Position numbers and translations under genes: made by a program. A stretch of 21,163 bases of DNA from a virus. The notes under the pieces were generated by a model. That model worked only from the letters and a program-made list of their open reading frames with translations. It was not told the origin of the DNA and made no database searches. The stretch's first letter is position 1; each line of letters starts with the position of its first letter. Below, one piece after another: positions 1 through 18,194 of the stretch. The DNA is taken from IMG/VR virus record IMGVR_UViG_3300025118_003125, positions 1 through 21,163 of that record; one strand, given 5' to 3'.

Positions 1-1022
1 TCTGGGAATGCGCCCTGGACTCCTGGACCTGAACCTCCGAGGGGTCTATCTTTTGGCATTCCGTATGTCATTGGAATTACTTGTTTTCTATTAACATAAT
101 ATGTCAAATCGTCCTCAAGGGCACTAGCGGCGGACCAAAATACGGGCAGCCCCCCACCCTTGTTAGCCGGTATACGTAAGTACGTTCGAATTGCGGCTTC
201 GGTTGCGCCTGGGATTTCCTGAACTCTCGTCTGAATTATAAGCTCTTCCATTTCATTTAATATTGCATTAAAAAGATTTCTCCACTGGGGGGATCTCGGT
301 GTTTTTTGAGACTTTCCAGTTAGAAAAGATTGTTTTCCTGGGCTGTCATCATATACATCAACCATTGTGTACACCTGTGGAACTGTATTCTTTGGCACTG
401 TTTTGTTTACCAAATATGCTCTAAGTGCCCGCTTTGCCGCAGCCTCCATAGCCTCTTTTTCTATGCCCATATATTTTCTTTCGGCTCGTAGTATGCTGTT
501 CTTCTTCAAGACATCAAGAATAATTTCATAAACTGCGTTTTCGTCTTTGAGAAGTCTCTCTTCCTTTTCCGGTGAATATTTTCCTTTTATAGCATCAGTG
601 GAGGCAAATATTTGGTTCACAACATTTTCTGGAGCGGGTTTAAGAAGCTCCATAAATATAATTAAATGTTTACCGCTTGAATCCTCAAATAAATTATAAA
701 CATCCACCACATATTCTTTGACATCATCAGGCAGTTTGTCCCTATTCTTTATTATCCAATTATAGTTTTTGCGCTCACTATAATATTGAGGCAGATGCCT
801 TCCTACAATTTTGGCTGCAAGTCGTTGTCTAGTTTCTTTATCCTCGACCTCGTAAACTACTCCCATCCTTCCCTCTCCAAGATATTTAATCAGGGTATAC
901 CCAGCTTCCTCAATGGCTGTTGCGTGGGTTGGTGGTAACGGCGGCAACACATTGCGATTGTCGTCGTAGCGAGTGTCTTCTTCGTTAATGAACTTGCGCC
1001 AATGCTCGAATAGGAGTTTCAT
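1..1022 (-). CDS. Protein-kinase-like protein, 3' end beyond window
   Basis: The reading frame starts at ATG 1022 and stays open to base 1, giving about 340 residues with the C-terminus missing. Residues 41-73 look like a protein kinase N-lobe: glycine-rich loop GEGRMGVVY (49-57) followed by LAAKIV, whose Lys71 fits the beta-3 ATP-binding lysine. Residues 102-129 (VVDVYNLFED, then LIIFMELLKP) fit beta-4, beta-5 and the hinge. No HRD or DFG motif is visible in the 210 residues after the hinge, so the catalytic loop either lies beyond the window after a large insert or is absent. The N-terminus, MKLLFEHWRKFINEE, is a short amphipathic leader resembling that of the gene upstream. The start overlaps the upstream stop as ATGA, which suggests translational coupling. 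Kinase-like fold is fairly likely; activity is unproven. Confidence 0.72.
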   Translation of the reverse strand, partial: MKLLFEHWRKFINEEDTRYDDNRNVLPPLPPTHATAIEEAGYTLIKYLGEGRMGVVYEVEDKETRQRLAAKIVGRHLPQYYSERKNYNWIIKNRDKLPDDVKEYVVDVYNLFEDSSGKHLIIFMELLKPAPENVVNQIFASTDAIKGKYSPEKEERLLKDENAVYEIILDVLKKNSILRAERKYMGIEKEAMEAAAKRALRAYLVNKTVPKNTVPQVYTMVDVYDDSPGKQSFLTGKSQKTPRSPQWRNLFNAILNEMEELIIQTRVQEIPGATEAAIRTYLRIPANKGGGLPVFWSAASALEDDLTYYVNRKQVIPMTYGMPKDRPLGGSGPGVQGAFP

Positions 1023-3469
1023 TTTTTGAGCCGCTCTGCTATTATTGAACGAACTCTTGCCCGAACGCTTTCCACGATATCGTCTCGCTTTCCTTTCCAT
1101 TCATAGCTCTGTTTCTGATTGTGGCTGGCACCGCGAGTGCCTAGTTCATCCCGAACATATTTCTTCCAAAATTGCGGAACGCCGTTGTTATCAGGATATA
1201 CGTTGGCATACGGTGTTCTTTCACTTTCCAGTCTATCCAAATAAACAACTGCCGCATGCTTTTCAACCCCGCTCATTTTACCAAAGTTCTCTTTGAACCA
1301 TTGTAGGACTTGGACAATGCTAGTGCGAATATTTTCTGGCTCAGATAATATTTTATTGTCTATTCTTACGATATGACCAAGTGCCATTGAGCCGTCAAGG
1401 ATGCTTTGCTCGCCCTCTTTCTCTATCCCTCTTTGCTCAGCGGTCATCTCATCATATACATCTCTTAGTTTTTGAACGATATCATCGTAATTCTTGTCTA
1501 GGCTCTTTATGAATGCCATGGTTGCGTGAGCCTCATCGGTAGTATGATATTTAGTAAAAGTAACTTGCACGCTGCCCCTAAGTTGCTTTGCGTCTAATGG
1601 TCCGTCTTTCAAGTATACCATCATTGAAGGATCTTCCCACCCTTCTTTGCCGGTTGTCTCTGGTTCCTTATATGCTCCTTTAAGTGGCAGTTCAAGTTGC
1701 CGCTGAGCGGCTTCGTGAGCCTCTACAAAATATTGCTTAATAGCGTTGCCTGCTTTAAGATCAAACTCAGAAGAATACCACCCACGATCACTCCCCGCAG
1801 GTTGCGTTGCCCTCATTACATTAAACAATATTTTATCTCTACTGCCTGGACCATGAAACGTCTTACCATAGTCACCGATAGGGGGAGGAGTTGCAGCGTC
1901 ACCGAGATCTGCGTTTTCCACCATCTCATAAAGAAGCGCAATTATTCCTCCGGTTTTGTTAATATGAAGTCTGAAGTGCTGTAAATCTAACTCTGTAATT
2001 TGACTGGTTATATCTTTTTGTGCTCTATCCCATCTTTCAGGAGCAAGAACTTTATTTTTAACAAGCTCGTTGCGGAGTTCTTCTTTGTATTCCACATACT
2101 CTTGCCCTGCATATAAGCCAATAATATTGTCAATAAAATTTTCTGCGTTGTCTCGATACTCTTGTCTCTGCTCGTTGCCTATATCCCATCCTCCCATACA
2201 ATCGTCGCAAGTCATCCTTGCCCGAATTTGTAGAGTTGGCCAACCGTCTGATTCGTGATTGGTGAAATCATACTCATACTGAAGGTCCATATAATCTTGA
2301 TCGACTCCCTCCTGATATGATTTTTCTATTGCCTCCTCGTCGTCCCAGACGTATTTCTCATCTTCCTCTTCAGACTCCACATTCCATCCCACGGGAAATT
2401 CAAATATTATGTTTGCTACTGCGGTCATACCCTCGTCGTTGTCGCCATAGATTTCAAACCCAATCACATCGGGTGTTCCCGTCTCGCTTAGTTCGACATT
2501 GGCATATTCGGAAAGTTTCTGACCTTCTTCATATAAGTCTATTCCAGGATCAGGTGGGTCATCGTCAAGGCTTTCTTGAATGCCGCCAACTATTTCCATC
2601 CACTTTTCCTCACCCCAAATCTGCTTATAATCATATAGCGCCTCGCCTCCAGCAAGCTGATCATCGGTTTCGTCATAGGCATCCCAAGGATCATTGGCTT
2701 CCAGATGATCTCCGTCATAAACAAAAGCAACTTTGCCTCGATCTGAAGTCTCCATCTTGTCTACGTCTGCTGCGTCTTTATCAAGAATAAAGAAGAACAC
2801 TGCTCCTTGCTCATTGGTATATTGATCCCAATAGTTGCGGGCTTCTGTTGCTGAGATACACCACTTGGTGCCTTGTCCATAATAACAAGAAGCTTCTTCT
2901 GAACCTGGACGAACAACAAGGGTTGTCTTGTCCTGGTAAATTCTATCTGCGTCTCCCCGGACCTTTTCTTTAAAGAGCGCTGCTTCATCTTTAGATTTTT
3001 TCTTTGCTTCTGCATTTTTTACTGCCTGAGAAAGATCCTCAACTGTTTTGTATGAGTGAATGTCTCTCCCACCTTTCTCGGTAGGTATAAATTTATTTAA
3101 CGCATGAAACTTTTCAACCTTATCTCCAACAGCATATATGCCAGAACGCCATTGATACTCTTTGTCAAACTTCTCTGTTTCCCCTAACTTGAGAAGCAAT
3201 TTGACCATATGGGCTAAATATTTATTATTTCCCGAGGGATCATACTTGGCGAGCCTGTCAATAAAATCAGTGCCGCCGGGGAGTTTGTCCCCGTATTTCT
3301 TTTTAACATCCTCAAGTCGTCCTTCAAGCAGGACGCGATTAAAAATCATCCGATCAACTTTCCAGTTTTCACGCCTCTCCCAAAGCATATCCTTCATGCT
3401 TTTTCTTTGGTTGGAGGTTTGGACTTTATTTAAATATTGCCGCCAGCCGTTTACAAAGTTATTGTTCAT
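1019..3469 (-). CDS. Large phage protein with YGxGTKWC motif, unknown function
   Basis: 816 residues. I do not recognise a function. Residues about 176-230 hold a distinctive block, RIYQDKTTLVVRP followed by CYYGQGTKWCIS (195-206) and a hydrophobic strand VFFFIL. I recall similar GTKWC blocks in uncharacterised proteins of large phages, but cannot name the family. Residues 240-400 are rich in Asp, Glu and aromatic residues; the last 300 are mixed and mainly helical-looking. No membrane segment or signal peptide is seen. The N-terminus MNNNFVNGWRQYLNK resembles the leader of the downstream kinase-like protein. It is the first gene after the terminator at 3524-3549 and is coupled to the kinase-like gene by a 4-base overlap. 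The ribosome binding site is weak (AGGG about 10 bases upstream). A late or virion gene is my guess from position and leader. Confidence 0.85.
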   Translation of the reverse strand: MNNNFVNGWRQYLNKVQTSNQRKSMKDMLWERRENWKVDRMIFNRVLLEGRLEDVKKKYGDKLPGGTDFIDRLAKYDPSGNNKYLAHMVKLLLKLGETEKFDKEYQWRSGIYAVGDKVEKFHALNKFIPTEKGGRDIHSYKTVEDLSQAVKNAEAKKKSKDEAALFKEKVRGDADRIYQDKTTLVVRPGSEEASCYYGQGTKWCISATEARNYWDQYTNEQGAVFFFILDKDAADVDKMETSDRGKVAFVYDGDHLEANDPWDAYDETDDQLAGGEALYDYKQIWGEEKWMEIVGGIQESLDDDPPDPGIDLYEEGQKLSEYANVELSETGTPDVIGFEIYGDNDEGMTAVANIIFEFPVGWNVESEEEDEKYVWDDEEAIEKSYQEGVDQDYMDLQYEYDFTNHESDGWPTLQIRARMTCDDCMGGWDIGNEQRQEYRDNAENFIDNIIGLYAGQEYVEYKEELRNELVKNKVLAPERWDRAQKDITSQITELDLQHFRLHINKTGGIIALLYEMVENADLGDAATPPPIGDYGKTFHGPGSRDKILFNVMRATQPAGSDRGWYSSEFDLKAGNAIKQYFVEAHEAAQRQLELPLKGAYKEPETTGKEGWEDPSMMVYLKDGPLDAKQLRGSVQVTFTKYHTTDEAHATMAFIKSLDKNYDDIVQKLRDVYDEMTAEQRGIEKEGEQSILDGSMALGHIVRIDNKILSEPENIRTSIVQVLQWFKENFGKMSGVEKHAAVVYLDRLESERTPYANVYPDNNGVPQFWKKYVRDELGTRGASHNQKQSYEWKGKRDDIVESVRARVRSIIAERLKK

Positions 3470-3579: not shown

Positions 3580-4017
3580 TCACTTAACCTTGATGGTGCG
3601 AGCGTAAGTTTTAACATCTGCGTTGGGAACCGATAGGGTAAGGATACCATTATCGTAGTTAGCGGCGATGTTGTCGGCATCGGTTCCCTCTGGAAGTCGC
3701 CAAGAGCGACTGAAAGAAGAGCAGGCGAAGGAGGTGTTCGTGTTATCTTCTTGGGTATAAGAAATTGTAAGAGTATCCGAATCAATATTCACATTGATAT
3801 CATCCTTCTTAACGCCGGGAGCGGCAACAGAAATCTGATATCCCTTGTCGGTCTTCGATACGTTATAATTAGCGTCGATCCCTCTCGACCGGCGAGATGT
3901 GTTTGTGAACGGATAAGCCACGGCATCGTCAAAAAACGAATCGAATAAACGATCCGAAAGAAAAGATCCGAATGGACTGGTGAGTGTGCCCCGAAAGGGG
4001 GTAAGTGTGTTTGACAT
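3580..4017 (-). CDS. Small heat shock protein, Hsp20/alpha-crystallin family
   Basis: 145 residues, usual size for bacterial and phage Hsp20. It is an ATP-independent holdase that binds unfolding proteins in the cytoplasm. The alpha-crystallin domain spans about residues 48-132, with the core APGVKKDDINV (66-76) and the conserved A-x-x-x-NGIL motif (119-126). A C-terminal I-x-V motif (IKV, 142-144) fits the oligomer-anchoring tail. The N-terminal arm is rich in Phe, Ser and Leu as in the family (SPFGSFLSDRLFDSFFDD). The start has AGAGGAG upstream. The gene stands alone between its own sigma-70-like promoter and a terminator. Phages of the T4 superfamily, including cyanophages, commonly carry Hsp20, where a role in virion assembly or host stress is assumed but not settled. 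Confidence 0.95.
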   Translation of the reverse strand: MSNTLTPFRGTLTSPFGSFLSDRLFDSFFDDAVAYPFTNTSRRSRGIDANYNVSKTDKGYQISVAAPGVKKDDINVNIDSDTLTISYTQEDNTNTSFACSSFSRSWRLPEGTDADNIAANYDNGILTLSVPNADVKTYARTIKVK

Positions 4018-4043
4018 AGTGTGTGTTCTCCTCTAAGTTGTCA

Positions 4044-4060
4044 ACCCCTCCTGTGAGGGT
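4044..4060 (-). promoter_or_regulatory. Hairpin at predicted 5' end of hsp20 mRNA
   Basis: On the minus strand CCCTC-ACAG-GAGGG forms a 5-bp stem with a 4-base loop. It sits directly after the -10 box at 4067-4072, so the transcript would begin at or just before the stem. The ribosome binding site AGAGGAG further down is left free. A 5' stabilising hairpin is more likely than a thermosensor. Confidence 0.4.
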
Positions 4061-4066
4061 ATCTAT

Positions 4067-4095
4067 AATATAATCACCTTTAACGCAATCGTCAA
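4067..4095 (-). promoter_or_regulatory. Sigma-70 promoter for hsp20
   Basis: On the minus strand, -35 TTGACG (4090-4095), 17-base spacer, -10 TATATT (4067-4072). The match is 5 of 6 at both boxes and the spacing is optimal. The -35 lies just after the stop of the preceding gene (4104), a layout shared with the other promoters in the window. Confidence 0.72.
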
Positions 4096-4103
4096 GTGAA
4101 AAT

Positions 4104-4319
4104 TCAAACTTTTTTATTATATTTTGCTCTCGTAAGCGTGAGGTCCACATCAGGAATAAACGTTGTCCCCTCATGACTGCCTTTGGTAATAGACATTACC
4201 AAGTTTGGCGTTTGTTTACTGATATCCACATATGCCTTGTTGGAGTCCATTGACGACTCAACAAGATCACACTGTATTTTCTCAGTGCTATAGTTAAAAC
4301 TAATAACTGTCCAAATCAT
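4104..4319 (-). CDS. Small hypothetical phage protein
   Basis: 71 residues from ATG 4319 (MIWTVISFNYSTEKIQ). This start, rather than the longer frame to 4382, is chosen because AAAGGATG lies at good spacing upstream and the ATG overlaps the upstream stop as ATGA. The sequence looks like a compact beta-rich protein with a basic C-terminus (ending NKKV). No motif or family is recognised. It is the last gene of the five-gene unit that starts at the promoter 5628-5656. Confidence 0.72.
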   Translation of the reverse strand: MIWTVISFNYSTEKIQCDLVESSMDSNKAYVDISKQTPNLVMSITKGSHEGTTFIPDVDLTLTRAKYNKKV

Positions 4320-4762
4320 TTTGCATCCTTTCGTGGTCTTCCACGTTTTCTGGGTACTCGTCCAATTCCGCCAGCACCCCAAAATTGTTTATTCTTTCTT
4401 TGATCTGTAATAAGAAGTGCCTCGATATATTCTCCTTCATCATCCGTTTTAAAGCGATAATAATAAGGCATTTCTTCCAATGTGCCGTATAAAGGCTGTG
4501 GCTTTTTTTTCTGGTACTTTTTCCGTGGTGGAGGCTGATTTAAATATTCAATACAACCTCGCACAACACCCTCTTCTGTTAAGCCTTCTTCAAGATATTT
4601 GCTGTGGTCTACGTTAATATAAACACCAACCACCCACCGGGTTGTTCCAAATGTTTTAAAATTAAAGTTAGAGCCGTGATATCTTCCAAGTTTCTTTTTT
4701 GTATTATACCCTGGAAGTACATTATGATACTCCTCTTGGGAACGTAGCATACATTCAATCAT
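4316..4762 (-). CDS. Hypothetical protein with C-terminal AT-hook-like tail
   Basis: 148 residues. The fold is not recognised. Residues 135-148 read RVPRKRGRPRKDAK, which contains the AT-hook core RGRP flanked by basic residues, as in HMGA-type minor-groove DNA binders. A second basic, Pro-rich patch (PPPRKKYQKKKPQP) lies near residue 90. The N-terminal half has Tyr- and Gly-rich strands (GYNTKKKLGRYHGSNFNF). The start at 4762 has AAAGGAT upstream. It is flanked by other small hypothetical genes with 3-base spacing upstream and a 4-base overlap downstream. AT-rich DNA or RNA binding is inferred from the tail alone. Confidence 0.78.
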   Translation of the reverse strand: MIECMLRSQEEYHNVLPGYNTKKKLGRYHGSNFNFKTFGTTRWVVGVYINVDHSKYLEEGLTEEGVVRGCIEYLNQPPPRKKYQKKKPQPLYGTLEEMPYYYRFKTDDEGEYIEALLITDQRKNKQFWGAGGIGRVPRKRGRPRKDAK

Positions 4763-4765
4763 ATG

Positions 4766-5071
4766 TTATCCTTTTAATAATGTTGATTTTGGTTGCGCGA
4801 GCCTTTCTTTTATAGAATCGGGCGAACCAATTACTACAATATCAAAAGAACCGTGTCCACCATTAATGTGCAGTTTTGTGAACTGGTGGCGTCCATCTAG
4901 TTCCTCGGGTAAAGCTCCTTCGTTTTCTTTTAAAACCTGTAATGTTTGTTCATCTTCTCGCAAACAAACGACAAAATCAGGATTTATATAGACAGAACGA
5001 ATTTCATATCTATTATTGTTTGATGTAAAACGGTTCTGCTTAAACACTTCTGTCAATTTGACCGTTGCCAT
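4766..5071 (-). CDS. Small hypothetical phage protein
   Basis: 101 residues with a strong ribosome binding site (AAGGAGC, 5-6 bases before ATG 5071). The segment SVYINPDFVVCLRED (26-40) resembles short beta proteins in which V-NPDHVV precedes an acidic turn, loosely like flagellar FlbD. I would not assign function on that. A glycine-rich HINGGHGSFDIVVIG follows at about 68-82. No membrane segment. The start overlaps the upstream gene by 32 bases. Probably an early accessory gene in the unit from promoter 5628-5656. Confidence 0.78.
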   Translation of the reverse strand: MATVKLTEVFKQNRFTSNNNRYEIRSVYINPDFVVCLREDEQTLQVLKENEGALPEELDGRHQFTKLHINGGHGSFDIVVIGSPDSIKERLAQPKSTLLKG

Positions 5072-5282
5072 TTTCGCTCCTTGTCATAGGATATAAGCTA
5101 TTTTGTTCTACAATCCAGCTTTCTCCTTCAAATAAGACTTCATAACAATTATCCATTGCTCCCAAAACCACAGCAGATGAGGGCTTTGTGAGTATATGAT
5201 ATTTATGTAATGCAGTAGTTCCCTTCTTAAACTGTTTTAATGTTGCCGCTGAAGGGATAAAAGCAAGATCACCCTTCTTCAT
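5040..5282 (-). CDS. Small hypothetical phage protein, SH3/KOW-like pattern
   Basis: 80 residues. The pattern MKKGDLAFIPSAATL, then AVVLG, then YEVLFEGESWIVEQNSLYP looks like a small SH3- or KOW-like beta barrel. Such proteins are frequent and uncharacterised in phage genomes. This is pattern recognition only. The start at 5282 has AGAGGAAG upstream, lying inside the end of the previous gene (14-base overlap), and the C-terminus overlaps the next gene by 32 bases. Part of the five-gene cluster of small proteins. Confidence 0.75.
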   Translation of the reverse strand: MKKGDLAFIPSAATLKQFKKGTTALHKYHILTKPSSAVVLGAMDNCYEVLFEGESWIVEQNSLYPMTRSENGNGQIDRSV

Positions 5283-5607
5283 TTTCTTCCTCTTGTTCTG
5301 ACGGCTCCTCTTCGGGATCTGGAGGGTTTTCTATATGGTCTATATATCCACTAAGAATAGCCATACAGTCCTCCATTCTAGTGTCTATTTTTGCCATATG
5401 CAGCCGTATCCTGTGAAGCGATACTAGTTCAGTTTTACCATGATTAAGAAGAGACTCTTGATCTATATGCTCGGTTACTATCGTTCTTGAAAGACCGGCT
5501 ACGTTTTCCGCCGCGAGATCTAGCTCTTTTTGTACAGCTTGTAGCAGATATGCGACCTCTCTTGGAATATCATCGAATTCCGTTTGTACGCTAAATGTTA
5601 CGTTCAT
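5269..5607 (-). CDS. Small hypothetical protein, helical with acidic tail
   Basis: 112 residues, first gene behind the perfect sigma-70 promoter at 5628-5656, with GGAG before ATG 5607. The body (about 15-90) looks like two or three amphipathic helices (REVAYLLQAVQKELDLAAE and following). The last 20 residues are almost all Pro, Glu, Asp and Gln, ending EEENEEG. No family is recognised. An acidic tail on a small helical protein near an early-type promoter is compatible with a host-takeover or DNA-mimic role, but nothing shows this. Confidence 0.78.
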   Translation of the reverse strand: MNVTFSVQTEFDDIPREVAYLLQAVQKELDLAAENVAGLSRTIVTEHIDQESLLNHGKTELVSLHRIRLHMAKIDTRMEDCMAILSGYIDHIENPPDPEEEPSEQEEENEEG

Positions 5608-5627
5608 ATTTTCTCCATGTTAGTAAT

Positions 5628-5656
5628 ATTATAACCGGTTTTTCGGTTTGTGTCAA
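5628..5656 (-). promoter_or_regulatory. Perfect sigma-70 promoter for the small-gene cluster
   Basis: On the minus strand, TTGACA (5651-5656), 17-base spacer, TATAAT (5628-5633). All 12 bases match consensus. The spacer holds a small inverted repeat (AACCG and CGGTT, 5633-5648) that could be an operator or chance. The leader to ATG 5607 would be only about 14 bases. Confidence 0.85.
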
Positions 5657-5662
5657 GTATTT

Positions 5663-6310
5663 TTATTTTTTTATTGCAAATTTTAGCCATCGCTCTTCCA
5701 CGTTATAAGTAGTGGTATCATCGAGTGGCAATATTTTATATTTCTTTGTGTTCTTCGCGGCAGTTGTAATTGGTTCTGACGCTACCTGAATAACAATGAA
5801 AACATTTTTATTGTTTGGAATATCACAAGGATTATTTTTCCTTAATGAAACATAGTCATTAACTTTAAATTTAGATTTTGAAAAATGAGATTCTAAAACT
5901 TTTTGAGCATATTTGTTTTGAGTCAACGCTTTGTATTGTCTTTCGGAGGGTATAAAATCCTTATCGTACAGTGCGCGATATGCCAAATCGCCATAATAGG
6001 GAGGATTGGCACAATAATATAAAGCACATATTTTGGTTGTTTCTCTTTTCATATCGCCATAATTCTCAAACCAAGTGGCATCCAGATCTGAATTTGCGTG
6101 AAGATAACTCTTCTCAATTTCACAAAAAGCATCGTATTGTTTTTTTGTAATTCCACCATATTTTTTATATCCAACAAGCAACGAAGAAAGAAAAGAAAGC
6201 GCATTTGGGCTAATATTATATTCATCCTTAAGCTTATTGATTCGCTGCAAGGTGTCAGGATCGGCAGTACGAGGAGTGTTAACTTTCTTATATGAAGAAT
6301 AGTAATCCAT
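5663..6310 (-). CDS. Hypothetical phage protein
   Basis: 215 residues from ATG 6310 (MDYYSSYKKVNTPRT). This start is preferred to the in-frame ATG at 6352 because AGGGGGC lies about 5 bases upstream and the longer version would run into the previous gene. The protein is Lys- and Tyr-rich, with a helical N-terminal half and a middle segment CANPPYYGDLAYRALYD. The NPPY there is probably not a methylase motif IV, since no AdoMet-binding Gly-rich motif precedes it. The C-terminal third looks beta-rich (VFIVIQVASEP). Function not recognised. It is the last gene of the long unit beginning at promoter 11933-11961, and its stop lies 6 bases before the next promoter. Confidence 0.75.
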   Translation of the reverse strand: MDYYSSYKKVNTPRTADPDTLQRINKLKDEYNISPNALSFLSSLLVGYKKYGGITKKQYDAFCEIEKSYLHANSDLDATWFENYGDMKRETTKICALYYCANPPYYGDLAYRALYDKDFIPSERQYKALTQNKYAQKVLESHFSKSKFKVNDYVSLRKNNPCDIPNNKNVFIVIQVASEPITTAAKNTKKYKILPLDDTTTYNVEERWLKFAIKK

Positions 6311-8971: not shown

Positions 8972-10285
8972 CTATCTGGTTTTAATTTTTAAATTGCCCC
9001 TATTGGTCGCCAATAAGTTTGATCTAAATTTTACCGAGTTAATATACACTTTGTGCATTCCCGGAATATCAATAATAATTGTAGAGGTTGGAGCGCCTGC
9101 TGACGACTTTCTAAAGTATACCATATTTTTTGGCATTAATTTATTCATTTCAATCTCGACCATATTAGGTGTTGTCTGCGGGACTTCCTCAAGGGATATA
9201 CCCGATGGAGCAGACTCTAGCTTATATAGTGGCATTCTCGCCTCATTTGGAGCCGCCTTTCCAAGATGTGCATCTTCGACAACATCAGCTAAATTTTCTA
9301 AAGTCATATTTCCTAGAGATTCAAAAAGAAGATTTCGTATTTGAGCAAATAAATTAACCACAACCGCTTTATAGATTGCAGAATATTGTTTTTTTGCCTC
9401 AAGCATCCAGTCAGGGGGGTTATAATCAGACGAGTTCGGATCATACACGATATCTTGAGGAAAACCTTGCTGTTGTCTCAATTCACTAAAAAATCGCTTT
9501 CTTCCAATCATCCACCAGGGCTCTCCTGTTGGGGACGGAATGAGGCTTTTTGCTTCTGAGCCATCTCCAAGATCTTTGTTGTAAATATATATGTTCGTGG
9601 AACCAATGGCAAGCTTTAAAGAAATACCAACTTTATTGCCATCGGCCAAGGTAAGTACTAAATCAGCCTTAGAGCCCGTTCCTCCAGCAACAGTTGTATT
9701 TTTGATCTCGCCAAGCCTTTCTTCAATTGAGACACGCGCAGCCTGCGCCCTTTCGACGTATTGTGCCCATTTATCCGAATCTAACATTCTAAAAACATCT
9801 TGCTTATCGGTGTTTTGGGGCAGGTCTATAGCTTTTTTTAATTTATCTGTTATCTCGCCAGTCATTACATAAGCCAGTATGTGCTCAAATGCAAGTCCCA
9901 CCCTGGTTTGAATATCATATTTATAAACGAGCTTGATTGTTCCCAAACTGGGGTCACCACCAGATATATAAGATACAGGAACACTATGAGCGCTTAATTT
10001 TCTATCTTCTACGGCAAATCCGCTATCAACCAATAGTTGCTTTACGCCCGCAATCCCATTAGCTCTATCTCGTTTAGTCTTGAATCTAACATATAGTGTA
10101 CTTGCACCAGATTTCATAATTGACGCTATGTGTAATTGTTCTTTCTGTGAATTTAGTGCAGATCCAATTTGTTGAAAAAGTGTATCCGATGCTTCCACCA
10201 TCACCTGCTCAACCAACCGAAATAGATCGGAGGTTTCAAAAGAATCGGTGAAGTAGTTTTCAACTAATAGGTCAAGCTCGTTCAT
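8972..10285 (-). CDS. Hypothetical protein with PD-(D/E)xK-like nuclease signature
   Basis: 437 residues. The best clue is at 200-226: GGTGSKADLVLTLADG, then GISLKLA. Here Asp208 and S-x-K (222-224) are spaced as in PD-(D/E)xK nucleases that use a variant third position; Glu134 (LAFEHILAY) could be the helix-1 acid. The flanking GSTNIYIYNKDLGDG and a C-terminal beta-rich part (370-437) have no assignment. N-terminus MNELDLLVENYFTD and the following LFRLVEQVMVEA are amphipathic, like a capsid-targeting leader. No Shine-Dalgarno precedes ATG 10285; the next ATG (residue 29) has only a badly spaced one. It lies between the candidate L,D-transpeptidase-like gene and dam. Nuclease identity is a moderate inference. 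Confidence 0.7.
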   Translation of the reverse strand: MNELDLLVENYFTDSFETSDLFRLVEQVMVEASDTLFQQIGSALNSQKEQLHIASIMKSGASTLYVRFKTKRDRANGIAGVKQLLVDSGFAVEDRKLSAHSVPVSYISGGDPSLGTIKLVYKYDIQTRVGLAFEHILAYVMTGEITDKLKKAIDLPQNTDKQDVFRMLDSDKWAQYVERAQAARVSIEERLGEIKNTTVAGGTGSKADLVLTLADGNKVGISLKLAIGSTNIYIYNKDLGDGSEAKSLIPSPTGEPWWMIGRKRFFSELRQQQGFPQDIVYDPNSSDYNPPDWMLEAKKQYSAIYKAVVVNLFAQIRNLLFESLGNMTLENLADVVEDAHLGKAAPNEARMPLYKLESAPSGISLEEVPQTTPNMVEIEMNKLMPKNMVYFRKSSAGAPTSTIIIDIPGMHKVYINSVKFRSNLLATNRGNLKIKTR

Positions 10286-11932: not shown

Positions 11933-11961
11933 ATTATAACAAGATCCACTCTACGTGTCAA
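11933..11961 (-). promoter_or_regulatory. Perfect sigma-70 promoter of the protease/chaperonin unit
   Basis: On the minus strand, TTGACA (11956-11961), 17-base spacer, TATAAT (11933-11938): full consensus. The -35 overlaps the stop codon of the P-loop kinase gene (11958). Should be read by unmodified host sigma-70 RNA polymerase, hence probably early. No terminator is seen until after 5663, so transcripts may run through groEL. Confidence 0.87.
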
Positions 11962-13199
11962 GTATTATTTTTTTTATTAAATTTTGCAACAAAGTCTTTT
12001 AATTCACTTAAATTTAATACCTCTTCTTTAACAATATCTTTAGCGGTAGGCGCTCCAGGTTTTGTATATACTGGTCCCGTATATTTTACATTAATGCCTG
12101 AGTATCTTGGATCCATTTCTGGTCGTTTTTCTGCTGGGGCTGTTCGTTTAATTTTAGTGAGGAGGTCAGTGGCGGCTTCTTTTCCTTCCAGTTCTCCTCC
12201 CAGTGACAGAAAAAGCGCCTCATGTACCTCGGGTGGGAGAGGAAGCCTTTCAGGATCTTGCGTATGTTCAATTCCATATTGAATAATATCTGTGATTTCG
12301 TCGCCCAGAGTTCCAACTCCACGTCCTTGGATATACTTAAGTGCATCATATATTAGACGACCGGTGGGATTTAGTGGTGCCTCTGGTGCGAGCCATTCGG
12401 AAAGATTCGTTTGTGCTACCTTTAGAATATCGCTGGCTTCGTCCCATGTTACACCTTGAAACGGGTTACGCATAAATTGCGAACGTTTCCCACCCTTTGG
12501 ATCTTTTAATTCCAGCTTATCGTCTTGTAACACGGACTCATCAAAGTCCTCTCTAATTTCACCTGTATTAATATCAAAAATATTTGGATATATTTTATCC
12601 GAAAGAAGGGTAACGCCTCGTTCCTCTCCTAACTGGAGATATGCTGCATCTCTTACAACATTTTTTTGATATTGATTGGCGATTTGTCTTGTGAGTTTTG
12701 GACCAACTTTTCTTTCTCCCTTTTTTGCCCACCGCTCTTCATCAGATTGAACTGAATAGTCAGGGGGGACATTGATCTGAAAGAGTGCTACATCATATCC
12801 TATTTCAACAAGGGCGCGGACGATATCGCGTATCTTGTTAATTTTTTCACCGGGAGTGTCAATTAATAACGGCATACATTTATTAACATATTTTCTCATC
12901 CTCTCTGCGGTGGCTTGCTGTAATAGTTTTCGCAATTCTTGTTTAACTACCTGCGGACCTTCTTCAAAATTAAGCGATAGTCCGTATCTAGGGAACACGT
13001 CTTCAACAAGTTCATCAGTATTAATAACAATAAAATTATCAGGGAGCCCAAGCACATCTTTAATGAATGTTTTACCTGCGCCTGCGGGTCCAAAAATAAA
13101 AACTACCTTAAAGGGGTTTTGAACTTGAGTTATTCCCTTTTGAAGCGCTTCTTGGATCTTTACTTCTTGAATTAATTGTCTAAGTTCGCTTATCTGCAT
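11958..13199 (-). CDS. P-loop kinase, zeta-toxin-like
   Basis: 413 residues. Walker A GPAGAGKT at 37-44 after strand VVFIF, then FIVINTDELVEDVF (56-69), where Asp62 fits the substrate-binding acid of zeta-toxin/AAA-type small kinases. A Walker B-like strand LLIDTPG lies near 110-116, then DVALFQINVP. Arg- and Lys-rich WAKKGERKVGPKLTRQ (about 153-168) could hold phosphate-binding arginines. The C-terminal 200 residues have no assignment. Such kinases phosphorylate UDP-sugars, nucleotides, RNA ends or proteins; substrate unknown. Zeta toxins usually pair with an epsilon antitoxin, and none is seen. N-terminus MQISELRQLIQEVKIQEAL resembles capsid-targeting leaders with a possible LIQE cleavage site. 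The start has only a weak Shine-Dalgarno. Alone between a terminator and the next promoter. Confidence 0.85.
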   Translation of the reverse strand: MQISELRQLIQEVKIQEALQKGITQVQNPFKVVFIFGPAGAGKTFIKDVLGLPDNFIVINTDELVEDVFPRYGLSLNFEEGPQVVKQELRKLLQQATAERMRKYVNKCMPLLIDTPGEKINKIRDIVRALVEIGYDVALFQINVPPDYSVQSDEERWAKKGERKVGPKLTRQIANQYQKNVVRDAAYLQLGEERGVTLLSDKIYPNIFDINTGEIREDFDESVLQDDKLELKDPKGGKRSQFMRNPFQGVTWDEASDILKVAQTNLSEWLAPEAPLNPTGRLIYDALKYIQGRGVGTLGDEITDIIQYGIEHTQDPERLPLPPEVHEALFLSLGGELEGKEAATDLLTKIKRTAPAEKRPEMDPRYSGINVKYTGPVYTKPGAPTAKDIVKEEVLNLSELKDFVAKFNKKNNT

Positions 13200-14646: not shown

Positions 14647-15676
14647 CGTACCTCCACTTAATATGGGTATTACTTTCTGCTAATCCTGATTGGGTTTGGC
14701 GAACAAATTGAGCATTCTCTCTTAACTCTTTGAGATTGCGAGCGCCGCTATATGATAAACCGCTCCGTATTCCATTTTCTAGCTCTTGTAATATATTAAT
14801 AACGGGCCCTTTATATGGAATAACTGTAGTGACGCCTTCCAGAGAGGACACGTTGCCACGCCAATCCATTTGTGCATCTTTGCTTGCCATTCCGCGATAC
14901 GACTTAAGCTTTTTATCCATTTGATGGATAACATCTCCTGGTGCCTCGGTTGTCCCGGCGAGCAAAGACCCTACCATAACAAAATCAGCACCTACTGCGA
15001 GTGCTTTTACAATATCACCAGAATTCTTAATACCGCCATCAGCAATAATTTTTATATCTGGGAACTTATCTTTAATTCGTGTACAATCGATAATCGATGC
15101 TAGAGTTGGCACCCCATGTCCAGTTTGAATACGAGTTGAGCAAATAGATCCCCCTCCTATTCCAACTCGGATACTGTGTGCTCCAAATTGTGCTAATGCA
15201 AAAGCACCTGTATATGTTGCAACATTTCCTGCCATCAAATGAACTATGTGTCCATACTTGTCTTTTAGATTGTGGAGCGCAACGTGCATTAATAAGTGAT
15301 CACCATGGGCTACATCGAGACATAGCACGCTAGCACCGGCAGATACAAGTTCTCTTGCTCTCTCTAGATAATCTCCAGTGATTCCAATAGCTGCGCCTAC
15401 TGTTTTTATACCACCTTCCGATGCTTCCGATACCATAGTCGCCTGTTTATCAATAGAATTATATCTATGAATAATACCTAACCCGCCGAACTCTGACATC
15501 TTCTGTGACATTCTTGTGCCACACACAGTATCCATTGGGCTGGCAATAATTGGTACCCTAAGTTCAATCCCCTCCGATATCTCCGAAGATAATGTCACCT
15601 CGCTTCGTGATTTGATATCACTATATTGGGGCAATAATAAAATATCATCAAAAGTTAAAAGTGTTTCAAGATCCAT
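14639..15676 (-). CDS. CBS-less IMP dehydrogenase/GMP reductase family enzyme
   Basis: 345 residues, a TIM-barrel purine enzyme. Motifs: [10 protein letters not shown] (7-16), ASPMDTV (45-51), catalytic loop [11 protein letters not shown] (172-182) with Cys179, ADGGI (212-216), [13 protein letters not shown] (235-247), SYRGM (259-263), and ESNTHI near the end. The CBS pair of bacterial IMPDH is missing, which sets the length near GMP reductase. Sequence around [13 protein letters not shown] and the C-terminus is IMPDH-like. But the flap between YRGM and PYKG is short, as in GMP reductase, and lacks the IMPDH Arg-Tyr pair (WRGN here). The reaction (IMP to XMP, or GMP to IMP) therefore stays open. 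Strong GGAGGAAG precedes ATG 15676. Likely feeds the phage purine pool. Confidence 0.9.
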
Positions 15677-15950
15677 CTTCTTCCTCCATAGTTTTTAGAA
15701 AACTGTTAATTACTTCTTGTGCCGTGTTCCAGCACGTCGGACAATAAAGCCGAACAGGATTATCTTCTTCTTGCTCTCTAACCACAACATTCCATGTCGT
15801 AGCCATTTCTTTATCATTCTTATCATATGCCGCCGTACAAGCAGTACACTCTTCAGGTAATTTACCGAACATGGCAACTTTAGCTGATAGTTCTTCGTTA
15901 CTGTCTTTTCGCAATTGTGCTTCTTGGGCTCGTCTTTGTTTTCTATTCAT
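15666..15950 (-). CDS. Small Cys4 zinc-ribbon-like protein
   Basis: 94 residues from ATG 15950 (MNRKQRRAQEAQLRKD). This start is chosen over 15989 because it overlaps the upstream stop as ATGA and has GGGAGCG upstream. Two Cys pairs, C-x2-C at 35-38 and C-x2-C at 70-73, could bind one zinc ion across a charged 31-residue linker. The N-terminus is strongly basic and helical; the C-terminus is acidic. No assigned function. It links the methylases to the IMPDH-like gene, overlapping the latter by 11 bases. Confidence 0.78.
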   Translation of the reverse strand: MNRKQRRAQEAQLRKDSNEELSAKVAMFGKLPEECTACTAAYDKNDKEMATTWNVVVREQEEDNPVRLYCPTCWNTAQEVINSFLKTMEEEDGS

Positions 15951-16435
15951 CGTTGAAGCGCTCCCATACGGGGGTAGTCGTCCGCCCAACCCTCGGGCAG
16001 ATTATTAAAGACTACTACTGCCGATGGGAATGGGGCACTGTTTGAGCTATCGCCAAACTTCAGACGACCTTTAACAAAATATACCAGTTCCGCCTTCATA
16101 ACGTAGTCGTGCCAATATCTCGTATCTGTCCGTGCCGGGATCAGCATTACAACTTTTGTATTGGAGTCTTGCGACTCTTCATATGCCTTCTTGATCCATG
16201 CTTCAATTCCTCTACCATATGGAGGATTAACAAATACTGTGTGTCCTTGCCAACTTTTTGATAGTCCATTTTCTGGCTCGGTGTAAAAATTGTCGCACTT
16301 AGCATTGTGAGGGCTTGCACAAGGGTCAAGATCAAAAGGTCCAAACCTCCAATTTAATTTATTATAAAAATCTTGGGGAGTTGACCATTCTCCCGATTTG
16401 CTGGAAAACATTGTTTCCTGGGTTGCCTTGTTCAT
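15947..16435 (-). CDS. Phage DNA N6-adenine methyltransferase (Dam/PF05869-like)
   Basis: 162 residues from ATG 16435 (MNKATQETMFSSKSGEWSTP). That start fits the ATGA overlap with the previous gene and the upstream AAAGGAAG. The pattern is that of short phage adenine methylases: EWSTPQDFYNKLN (16-28), FGPFDLDPCAS (31-41), NPPYG (70-74, motif IV), then VVMLIPARTDTRYWHDY and GRLKF. Size is close to family members of about 160-180 residues. Target site unknown. Directly adjacent and coupled to a second adenine methylase, so the two may differ in target or serve with the candidate nuclease upstream. Confidence 0.93.
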   Translation of the reverse strand: MNKATQETMFSSKSGEWSTPQDFYNKLNWRFGPFDLDPCASPHNAKCDNFYTEPENGLSKSWQGHTVFVNPPYGRGIEAWIKKAYEESQDSNTKVVMLIPARTDTRYWHDYVMKAELVYFVKGRLKFGDSSNSAPFPSAVVVFNNLPEGWADDYPRMGALQR

Positions 16436-17286
16436 TCTCGCTCTTCCTTTGCTTTTGAATAAAATGTTATGAGATCGTGTTTCGATATACTTGGATTGCC
16501 AGCGGTGTCGTATTTTGGACTTTCGTGAAAATTCCAATTTATAGATTGCATTATGTGATAAACATCTTTAGTCTTTTGTTTTATATAATAGTGACTTTTC
16601 CAATCTCGTTTTTTCTGTTTAAAGTCTGTATAAACTTTACCAGCATTGCCCCCGACCCGCCTTACACAAAAGTCGGATTGCTGTTGTTGCGCTTTTGTAT
16701 GCCCTAGAGTTGGTTTTTTAGTTTTTTTATCAACCTCAATTGAAACAAAATCAAAATCTTGACACACTATAGTTGTCTCAATTCTATCTCTTTCTATGTT
16801 TTTTCGTTCCCATACTTGAAACACTGTGGGGACCGCATATGACTCTCCAGAAGGTAAATAAAATGCATCTACTTCTAATATTTCTTGTTTAACTAAGTGA
16901 AAACCTGAATTTAATCGATTAATTAATGAAGGCTTTCTAAATGTTCTCGGCACGATAAAAGCAATACAATCAGAAAATTGTGCTGCATGATTAAAGAATT
17001 TAACGGCAAGACTAGAGTTTTTGCCGAAGGGGGGATTGCCAATAGTCAGAACCCCGCTCATCCTATTTGGAACAAAATCAAAGAAGTCTCCTTGTCTTAT
17101 TTCAGATAAGGCTGGCTCTAAATCGATTCCAATTCTCTTATCTTGTGGTAATCTTTTTAAGAAATCCCCTGCGCCAGCAGAGGGCTCCACAATTAAATCA
17201 AACGTAGAACAATCAATCATTTCGAGAACTTTCTCGACGATTGATGGCTTTGTATAAAATTGATCTAGACTATGCTGCTTCGGCAC
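16432..17286 (-). CDS. N6-adenine methyltransferase, NPPF class
   Basis: 284 residues when started at GTG 17286: AGGAG lies 7-8 bases upstream and the protein begins PKQHSLDQFYTKPSIVEKVLEM, a usual methylase opening. The longer frame to 17370 would overlap the previous gene by 101 bases and has no ribosome site. Motif I IVEPSAGAGDF (32-42), acidic motif II IGIDLEP (52-58), motif IV GNPPFG (83-88), then CIAFIVPRTFRKPS. The C-terminal half is basic and Gln/Lys-rich and may carry DNA recognition. Could methylate DNA; RNA or protein targets are less likely. Coupled to the next methylase by ATGA. Confidence 0.88.
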   Translation of the reverse strand: MPKQHSLDQFYTKPSIVEKVLEMIDCSTFDLIVEPSAGAGDFLKRLPQDKRIGIDLEPALSEIRQGDFFDFVPNRMSGVLTIGNPPFGKNSSLAVKFFNHAAQFSDCIAFIVPRTFRKPSLINRLNSGFHLVKQEILEVDAFYLPSGESYAVPTVFQVWERKNIERDRIETTIVCQDFDFVSIEVDKKTKKPTLGHTKAQQQQSDFCVRRVGGNAGKVYTDFKQKKRDWKSHYYIKQKTKDVYHIMQSINWNFHESPKYDTAGNPSISKHDLITFYSKAKEERE

Positions 17287-17743
17287 CAAATAGCTCCTGC
17301 CTTTTTGTTTTTGTGATGCACCCATTGGGATACTGAATAGATAAATCTTGTCCTTTCTTAAAAACAACATTTACTTTGGGAAAGTCAACAATGTCACAAA
17401 TAATATAATTCATATTTTCCGTTTTAAACAAAAACTGCTTCTCATCAAATTTGCGACCTGTACCAATCATTCCAGAAGGCATAAACTTACAGCCACTTGC
17501 TGTTGTAAAGTTCTTGGCATCATACTTTATGTTTTCATCATCCCTGTTAACATGATCGTGATCCTTACATCCCTTGATGTGTTTTAATTCGGGGAACCAT
17601 GTTACCAATTGCGGTTCCAATAGATGCGAAGCTACGCGACCATCTTTAAATATCTCCACTAGAGCCTCGGTGGTAAGATTTCCAAACCCAAAAGTTCCAG
17701 TTAGATTAAATTTATAAACATTATTGAACTTAATTTTGCTCAT
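17270..17743 (-). CDS. Putative PD-(D/E)xK endonuclease next to methylases
   Basis: 157 residues from ATG 17743 (MSKIKFNNVYKFNLTG), which has GGGGAGC upstream; the longer frame to 17842 lies mostly inside dUTPase. Residues 38-78 contain Glu43 (HLLEPQLV), Asp61/Asp63 (CKDHDHV) and DAK (75-77, NIKYDAKNFT), in the order and spacing of a PD-(D/E)xK core. The following GCKFMPSGMIGTGRKFDE (84-101) and YIICDIVDFPKVNVVF (113-128) are a conserved-looking block I recall from uncharacterised phage proteins near methylases. It overlaps dUTPase by 14 bases and the adenine methylase by 17. A restriction-like partner is attractive but unproven; DNA repair or recombination nuclease is the alternative. Confidence 0.7.
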   Translation of the reverse strand: MSKIKFNNVYKFNLTGTFGFGNLTTEALVEIFKDGRVASHLLEPQLVTWFPELKHIKGCKDHDHVNRDDENIKYDAKNFTTASGCKFMPSGMIGTGRKFDEKQFLFKTENMNYIICDIVDFPKVNVVFKKGQDLSIQYPNGCITKTKRQELFGAEAA

Positions 17744-18194
17744 CTGTGCTCCCCAAGGCTCCATCGCCTCGTTCACTGATTGTAATTGGATACCATCCAT
17801 AAAGATCAGAGTTGGAAGTTTCCATTGCCCTAAATGAAACAACCGGAACCATTACAACCTGTGCAATTTTTGCATGGGGTTCGATTACCTGCTCCTTCGT
17901 ACCGATATTGTGAAGGTTAACAAATAACTCTCCATCGTATCCGCTGTCCACTACGCACGCCCCCACAACGAGAGAGCGCATAGCCGCTATACTTGATCGG
18001 TTCTTAACCTCAAGCATATATCCGTGAGGGACGCCAAACTTTAGCCCCGTCGAGAGGATTGCACTTTCTCCTGGCTGGATAGTAACGGGTTTTTGCTCCT
18101 TGGGTGAAAAATAGACATCCAATCCTGCATCACTTGGGTTGCTGCGGCTTGGTGGGTGTGCGTTCATATGCACTCTATGATATTCAATAATCAT
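17730..18194 (-). CDS. dut: dUTP diphosphatase (trimeric type)
   Basis: 154 residues, standard length. It hydrolyses dUTP to dUMP and PPi, keeping uracil out of DNA and supplying dTMP synthesis. The five motifs are present: SDAGLDVY (21-28), NRSSIA (65-70), VVDSGYDGEL (81-90) with catalytic Asp83, KIAQVV (109-114) and ERGDGALGST (141-150). In motif 5 the usual Phe of GGFGST is Leu, which may weaken uracil stacking. First gene behind the consensus promoter at 18217-18245, with AAGGAG before ATG 18194. It begins the nucleotide and DNA-modification unit. Confidence 0.95.
   Translation of the reverse strand: MIIEYHRVHMNAHPPSRSNPSDAGLDVYFSPKEQKPVTIQPGESAILSTGLKFGVPHGYMLEVKNRSSIAAMRSLVVGACVVDSGYDGELFVNLHNIGTKEQVIEPHAKIAQVVMVPVVSFRAMETSNSDLYGWYPITISERGDGALGSTDEQN

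Follow-up and report, generated by a model that had tools for sequence, protein, structure and literature searches.

Leader-bearing genes of the window

The window is an entire IMG/VR record, 21,163 bases long, and a fragment of a larger phage, with almost all of the coding on its minus strand. No head module is present in these 21 kb. Among its genes, some of them named from reading translations, are those for a DnaE-type polymerase, a dUTPase-like protein, an IMP dehydrogenase/GMP reductase-like protein, a ClpP-like protein, GroEL and Hsp20. The initial annotation drew attention to a similar short N-terminal segment on four products and likened it to the segment that directs T4 internal proteins into the prohead. 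These four genes, and a fifth that it did not name, are as follows, the protein behind a leader being termed its cargo.

3 to 1022, minus strand: kin340, protein-kinase-like cargo, an open reading frame truncated at the window end, with its leader codons at about 981-1022
1019 to 3469, minus strand: p816, an open reading frame of 816 amino acids whose class I leader, MNNNFVNGWRQYLNK, is degenerate, as assigned from leader score and homologue comparison
8972 to 10285, minus strand: p437, 437 amino acids, with a class III leader of about 31 residues (MNELDLLVENYFTDSFETSDLFRLVEQVMxE), assigned from synteny comparison
11958 to 13199, minus strand: ploop413, a zeta-toxin/AAA-type P-loop kinase of 413 amino acids with a class II leader, assigned from Pfam and leader score
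13328 to 14008, minus strand: core226, an acidic protein with the start LSEAQVRRFQGLAGIPAINE, which its homologues share

The first residues of kin340 and p816 read as originally given. The four-gene claim stands for kin340, which has a canonical class I leader, for p816, whose leader is a degenerate form of it, and for the kinase starting at 13199 (ploop413), with the qualification that the leader there is of a second class. For p437 only part of it can be kept: its start is conserved before differing cargo in related phages, but as MNELDLLVENYF it fits neither the class I nor the class II matrix.

The mutational map of the T4 IPIII leader is reportedly due originally to Mullaney and Black in 1996. 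On this map residues 4 and 7 serve targeting, residues 8 and 10 serve processing, and Asp at position 10 blocks processing while leaving targeting unaffected (PMC9026906). The L/I-x-x-E cut site first put forward for the window has to be amended, as the published T4 processing positions, I8 and E10, give [LI]-x-E. The ends on which it was based, FINE, LIQE and LLVE, still finish in INE, IQE and LVE and fit [LI]-x-E or [LIV]-x-E.

The ATG of kin340 (start 1022) overlaps the TGA of p816 as ATGA. Its leader, MKLLFEHWRKFINEE, is a perfect copy of MKLL[MLF]ENWRK[YF]LNE and, when scored by a matrix from which the window was left out, exceeds all 17,760 internal control windows from the proteins of relatives. 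The predicted cut is MKLLFEHWRKFINE^E, that is FINE^E. The kinase identity is weakly founded, resting on a Pfam Pkinase match (E=7e-5) whose 22.8 bits are under the curated cut-off of 31.7, the gene being incomplete, and on a relative in L112 that starts MYQKFWNQFLVE and contains HMGN...VDLG.

The p816 leader has a score of p = 0.00006, again with the window excluded from the matrix. It keeps the W and Y assigned to targeting and has Lys at the predicted cleavage Glu, so that it ends in L-N-K without a fit to [LI]-x-E. The Glu is also missing in several homologues. One homologue (L182) has a canonical class I leader, MKLLFENWRQYLNE, three (G001, G010, L192) have a degenerate one, and none is evident in L094, Paride or SCTP-2. 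A mean pLDDT of 39.6 makes the AlphaFold prediction for p816 unusable. At residues ~190-220 a conserved ASCYYGxGTKWCISATxxxNYFxQY defines a family that extends to Pseudomonas phage Paride and relatives, where its gene immediately follows that for the terminase, and to Salicola phage SCTP-2; the Paride and SCTP-2 members are without the WR leader. Within the window class I scores are strong in kin340 and p816 only, the weakest other match (17270-17767) having p = 0.01.

The product of ploop413 starts MQISELRQLIQEV, and its class II leader scores at p<0.0001 under a matrix that likewise excludes the window. Matches to Zeta_toxin (PF06414, E=1e-10, 41.6 bits with a cut-off of 22.3) and PF13671 (27.8 bits, cut-off 27) mean that the curated Zeta toxin and AAA_33 P-loop kinase models are met by the predicted protein; for toxin activity there are no data. 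Cleavage is predicted at MQISELRQLIQE^V, LIQE^V, and the MQISELRQLIQE form of the leader is retained among the homologues. No other class II score in the window is strong, the next being at 15666-15956 (p = 0.003).

The start of p437, MNELDLLVENYFTDSFETSDLFRLVEQVM, is conserved over ~31 residues at the syntenic locus in L007, L010, L016, L017, L018, L022 and L075. The sequences behind it differ, being of one kind in L017/L018, another in L007/L022, others in L016 and in L010, and in the window and L075 at best distantly alike; downstream of the leader p437 has no match to the seven related loci at E<=1e-3, the best being E=0.009 (L075). A cut after Glu is possible at LLVE^N or at a later site. 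The earlier description of p437 as nuclease-like finds no support from Pfam, PHROGs or NCBIfam.

At its start, LSEAQVRRFQGLAGI, core226 is similar to the C-terminal end of the scaffold core proteins of relatives (L099, L305-L314), which finish in R-M-x-x-L-A-G-I, and the protein is for this reason a candidate internal head-core protein. Flavobacterium phage immuto has a protein, gp083, encoded near its head module, that begins LSEQFRRMQKLAGI, the same start as core226. The motif R-[FM]-x-x-L-A-G-[IL] is thus found at the core226 N-terminus, at the scaffold core protein C-terminus and near the start of gp083, and is perhaps a core-binding motif.

Modular leaders and their exchange between cargo

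The class I search pattern fixed M1, K2, hydrophobic residues at 3-5, E6, W8, R9, an aromatic residue at 11 and a hydrophobic one at 12, and left positions 7, 10, 13 and 14 free; MKLLMENWRKYLNE is a leader peptide with W8, Y11 and E14. A stricter first pattern (FE...NE) had no IMG/VR match. The class I pattern matches at least 120 IMG/VR stretches, and the leader starts at least 155 distinct IMG/VR proteins, which form at least 91 unrelated groups when the proteins are cut at residue 20 and compared by BLASTP at E<=1e-3. Remote homology will lower these group counts somewhat, though the diversity of Pfam matches keeps the number of unrelated folds at about a dozen or more. Behind the leader are protein kinase, zeta toxin and other P-loop kinase domains, M23 peptidase, RNase T-type exonuclease, NUDIX, GDSL lipase, HD_4, acetyltransferase and nucleotidase-like domains. 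The original observation is borne out on a larger scale than first reported, with the same leader on many unrelated proteins.

At the unconstrained positions of the class I proteins among the matches listed, E14 is present in 90% and N7 in 82%. From 2.9 bits at E14 the relative entropy drops to 0.77, 0.30 and 0.17 at residues 15-17, so that the module has 14 residues and conservation collapses after residue 14-15. The DNA encoding it has 140 versions among the matches listed, with all six Arg codons used at R9; since it varies freely, selection acts on the peptide, and a DNA-level signal as the cause of the conservation is rejected.

Enrichment at N-termini was assessed in eleven long relatives, read from among 80 related loci fetched by DnaE. 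In these relatives, chosen without selection for the leader, 36 predicted genes have W-[RKN]-x-[FYLW]-hydrophobic among their first 16 residues, as against 4.4 expected from the internal rate. With the matrices, 29 (class I) and 32 (class II) of 1,206 N-termini lie above the 99.9% level of internal windows, where 1.2 are expected for each. This second result is not fully independent because the matrices were trained partly on leaders of the same relatives; the regular-expression count is independent. Without the ATG, the leader pattern has ~70 matches in 28 long records, 17 of them picked for carrying the leader, versus 3 for a reversed-pattern control. Two of the eleven DnaE-chosen relatives (G005 and G006) have no class I leader in their predicted genes.

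With E14 fixed, the pattern occurs twice in bacterial and archaeal genomes totalling 257 Gb, and one of the two occurrences lies on a phage contig that bears several class I leaders and one class II leader. A chromosome of a candidate division WOR-3 MAG (L437) has one class I leader gene, from a prophage or a mis-binned phage. Searches of cultured phages by tblastn with the short leader peptides gave one weak match each, their power being too low. None of the papers searched contains the leader strings looked for, with preprints and most subscription papers outside that search.

The class II leader, MKIT[KR]xQLKQIIKEE, starts at least 185 proteins in at least 149 groups. Conservation of its cleavage site lacks independent support as E14-E15 were fixed in the search pattern. 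In six cargo groups among the matches listed the leader is of class I or class II depending on the phage, as with L252 and L421 (64% identity, E=9e-96) or L249 and L089 (70%), and the zeta-type kinase L266, whose leader is of class I, falls in one group with class II zeta kinases. A 5'-3' deoxyribonucleotidase is without a leader in Agrobacterium phage Atu_ph07, MNTLFCDLDGVL, and with one, placed ahead of the catalytic start, in L205, L220 and L241. The initial annotation had allowed that homologues might share the leader only through whole-protein homology. This is ruled out by the 91 or more groups for class I, the 149 or more for class II and the swapping of p437 cargo at one locus.

In immuto, gp080 starts MKKSQLRQIIKE and gp069 starts FDIHKWQAKFLKE. 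The adjacent gp077 and gp076 of the same phage (L432 7632-8932) share an N-terminal FxLxxFLxENKLTxNxxxLKE, possibly a further leader class, in a cultured phage.

Proposed prohead targeting and its alternatives

The head module of the relatives is ordered terminase, portal, protease, small core protein, scaffold, MCP, as in T4-like phages, and their MCP matches those of T4-like phages, with an LLRE^A site that aligns with FLTE^A of T4 gp23. Lack of a prohead protease would have counted against the targeting proposal from the start; a gp21-type enzyme (PF03420) is encoded in 13 of the 13 relatives with records of at least 139 kb, and in 19 of 30 records overall, the remainder being fragments. 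Leader-bearing genes are present within the head module (G001 3999-6188; L304 8981-10051), and in G001 and G014 they adjoin the protease. The N-terminal propeptide of the MCP (L099, L305-L314 and T4 gp23), LLNKWxxxxLLEG, resembles class I LLxENWRxYLxE, and the leaders may mimic its scaffold-binding part.

It is concluded, from sequence comparison, that the leaders are CTS-like sequences of uncultured T4-like phages known mostly from environmental metagenomes. That they are capsid-targeting propeptides working like those of T4 internal proteins has in our estimate a probability of about 0.8, and the steps from docking on the core to action in the host, with cleavage, packaging and injection among them, are inferred. 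Directly observed are the modular leader with its sharp Glu14 boundary and T4-map spacing, leader exchange, and, in relatives, a protease and head module of T4 type. The sequences give good support to packaging, cleavage and injection, which remain inference, since no virion proteome of this phage group was found; the search, which extended to N-terminal mapping and included immuto, yielded neither kind of data.

During prohead assembly the short helix, by way of W8 and [FY]11 in class I, would dock on the scaffolding core and bring the attached protein along. The T4-type prohead protease would then cut after the Glu of [LI]-x-E to release the cargo within the head, from which it would exit with the DNA at infection. 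Class I (MKLLxENWRKYLNE) and class II (MKITKxQLKQIIKEE) would be interchangeable on the same cargo, and the third, longer leader would hold a locus where cargo is exchanged. The cargo of the window would comprise kin340, the zeta-type kinase, p816 and p437. By T4 precedent p816, with Lys in place of Glu, would be targeted and packaged yet not cut at that point. The interchangeable propeptides, of at least two classes and probably three, then likely act as an all-purpose means of loading enzymes into the head, for an arsenal that is very large and changes fast, and N-termini by themselves would suffice to identify, in metagenomes, the injected proteins of whole phage groups; as members of the arsenal we propose kinases, zeta-type kinases, NUDIX and HD hydrolases, nucleases, acetyltransferases and peptidases.

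The leaders could instead send cargo to another part of the virion, such as the neck, tail tube or baseplate, or else fix it permanently inside the head with no cleavage. The Lys of p816 and the variation of its homologues at the cut Glu would accord with this, and some cargo, M23 peptidase and endolysin-like, suits the tail as well. That possibility is nevertheless unlikely given that in 90% the leader stops sharply at [LI]-x-E, the motif expected of a gp21-type protease acting in the prohead, and that leader-bearing genes lie beside the protease in the head module. An intracellular docking motif unrelated to virions, recruiting enzymes to a phage or host complex for instance, needs no Glu at a fixed end nor a loss of conservation right after it, and it leaves aside the spacing of the T4 CTS map and the matching protease that the phages encode. 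It draws on the many cargo enzymes that could act in the cell (NUDIX, nucleotidase, kinases) and on the absence of virion-location data, and we consider it quite improbable.

Chance, whole-protein common descent or recent gene duplication can scarcely account for the similarity. Some groups are true families, the largest of 12 members among the matches listed, and BLASTP can miss remote homology. Against this stand the N-terminal enrichment over internal windows, the many different Pfam folds in unrelated groups behind one leader, the number of DNA versions with their codon variation, and leader exchange on the same cargo, and on these grounds chance and whole-protein homology are rejected.

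Proteins of early infection are hard to find because they have no common fold. If the capsid-targeting reading is right, a portable 14-residue tag with its cut site would allow a list to be drawn up, from sequence alone, of the proteins that uncultured phages may inject, new anti-defence proteins among them, and would itself be available for packing proteins into phage heads.

Comparison with known phage head propeptides

Head proteins of the giant Salmonella phage SPN3US have long N-terminal propeptides thought to target them into the prohead (PMC5694885). Unlike the leaders described here, those propeptides are mostly of more than 100 residues where lengths are quoted and are without a shared 14-residue module. 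In the SPN3US-related phiKZ the reported cut motif also differs, being S/A-x-E.

A parallel also exists with T4 Alt and other ejected head proteins, likewise enzymes for which entry into the host along with the DNA is proposed, and Alt too has a short processed N-terminal propeptide. The cargo of the present leaders, in contrast, varies from phage to phage, and Pfam found no ADP-ribosyltransferase homology in the cargo tested. ADP-ribosyltransferases had been suspected from YHxS/YHGT motifs; Pfam gave no support.

A close counterpart is the T4 CTS of IPI, IPII and IPIII, which like the leaders is a short N-terminal propeptide on diverse proteins. The T4 internal proteins are a diverse set with the CTS alone in common (PMC3012670). 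The start MKTYQEFIAEA that the initial annotation cited for them is present in IPII and IPIII. The class I residues themselves differ (MKLLxENWRxYLxE, with W-R), and the phage leaders span a much larger range of cargo, have a second interchangeable class and are without virion evidence. By eye only, T4 gp22 (MLKEQLIAEA) and gp24 (MAKINELLRES) resemble class II and class III, respectively, in L-I-x-E and E-L-L-x-E. The T4-type head, scaffold and prohead protease are shared by relatives of the window, and the likeness proposed at the outset extends to residue spacing: by alignment, without mutation data, class I W8, [FY]11, [LI]12 and E14 are spaced as Y4, F7, I8 and E10 of T4. If the proposal holds, the T4 CTS, which has been described on a few internal proteins, would be one version of a widespread loading system.
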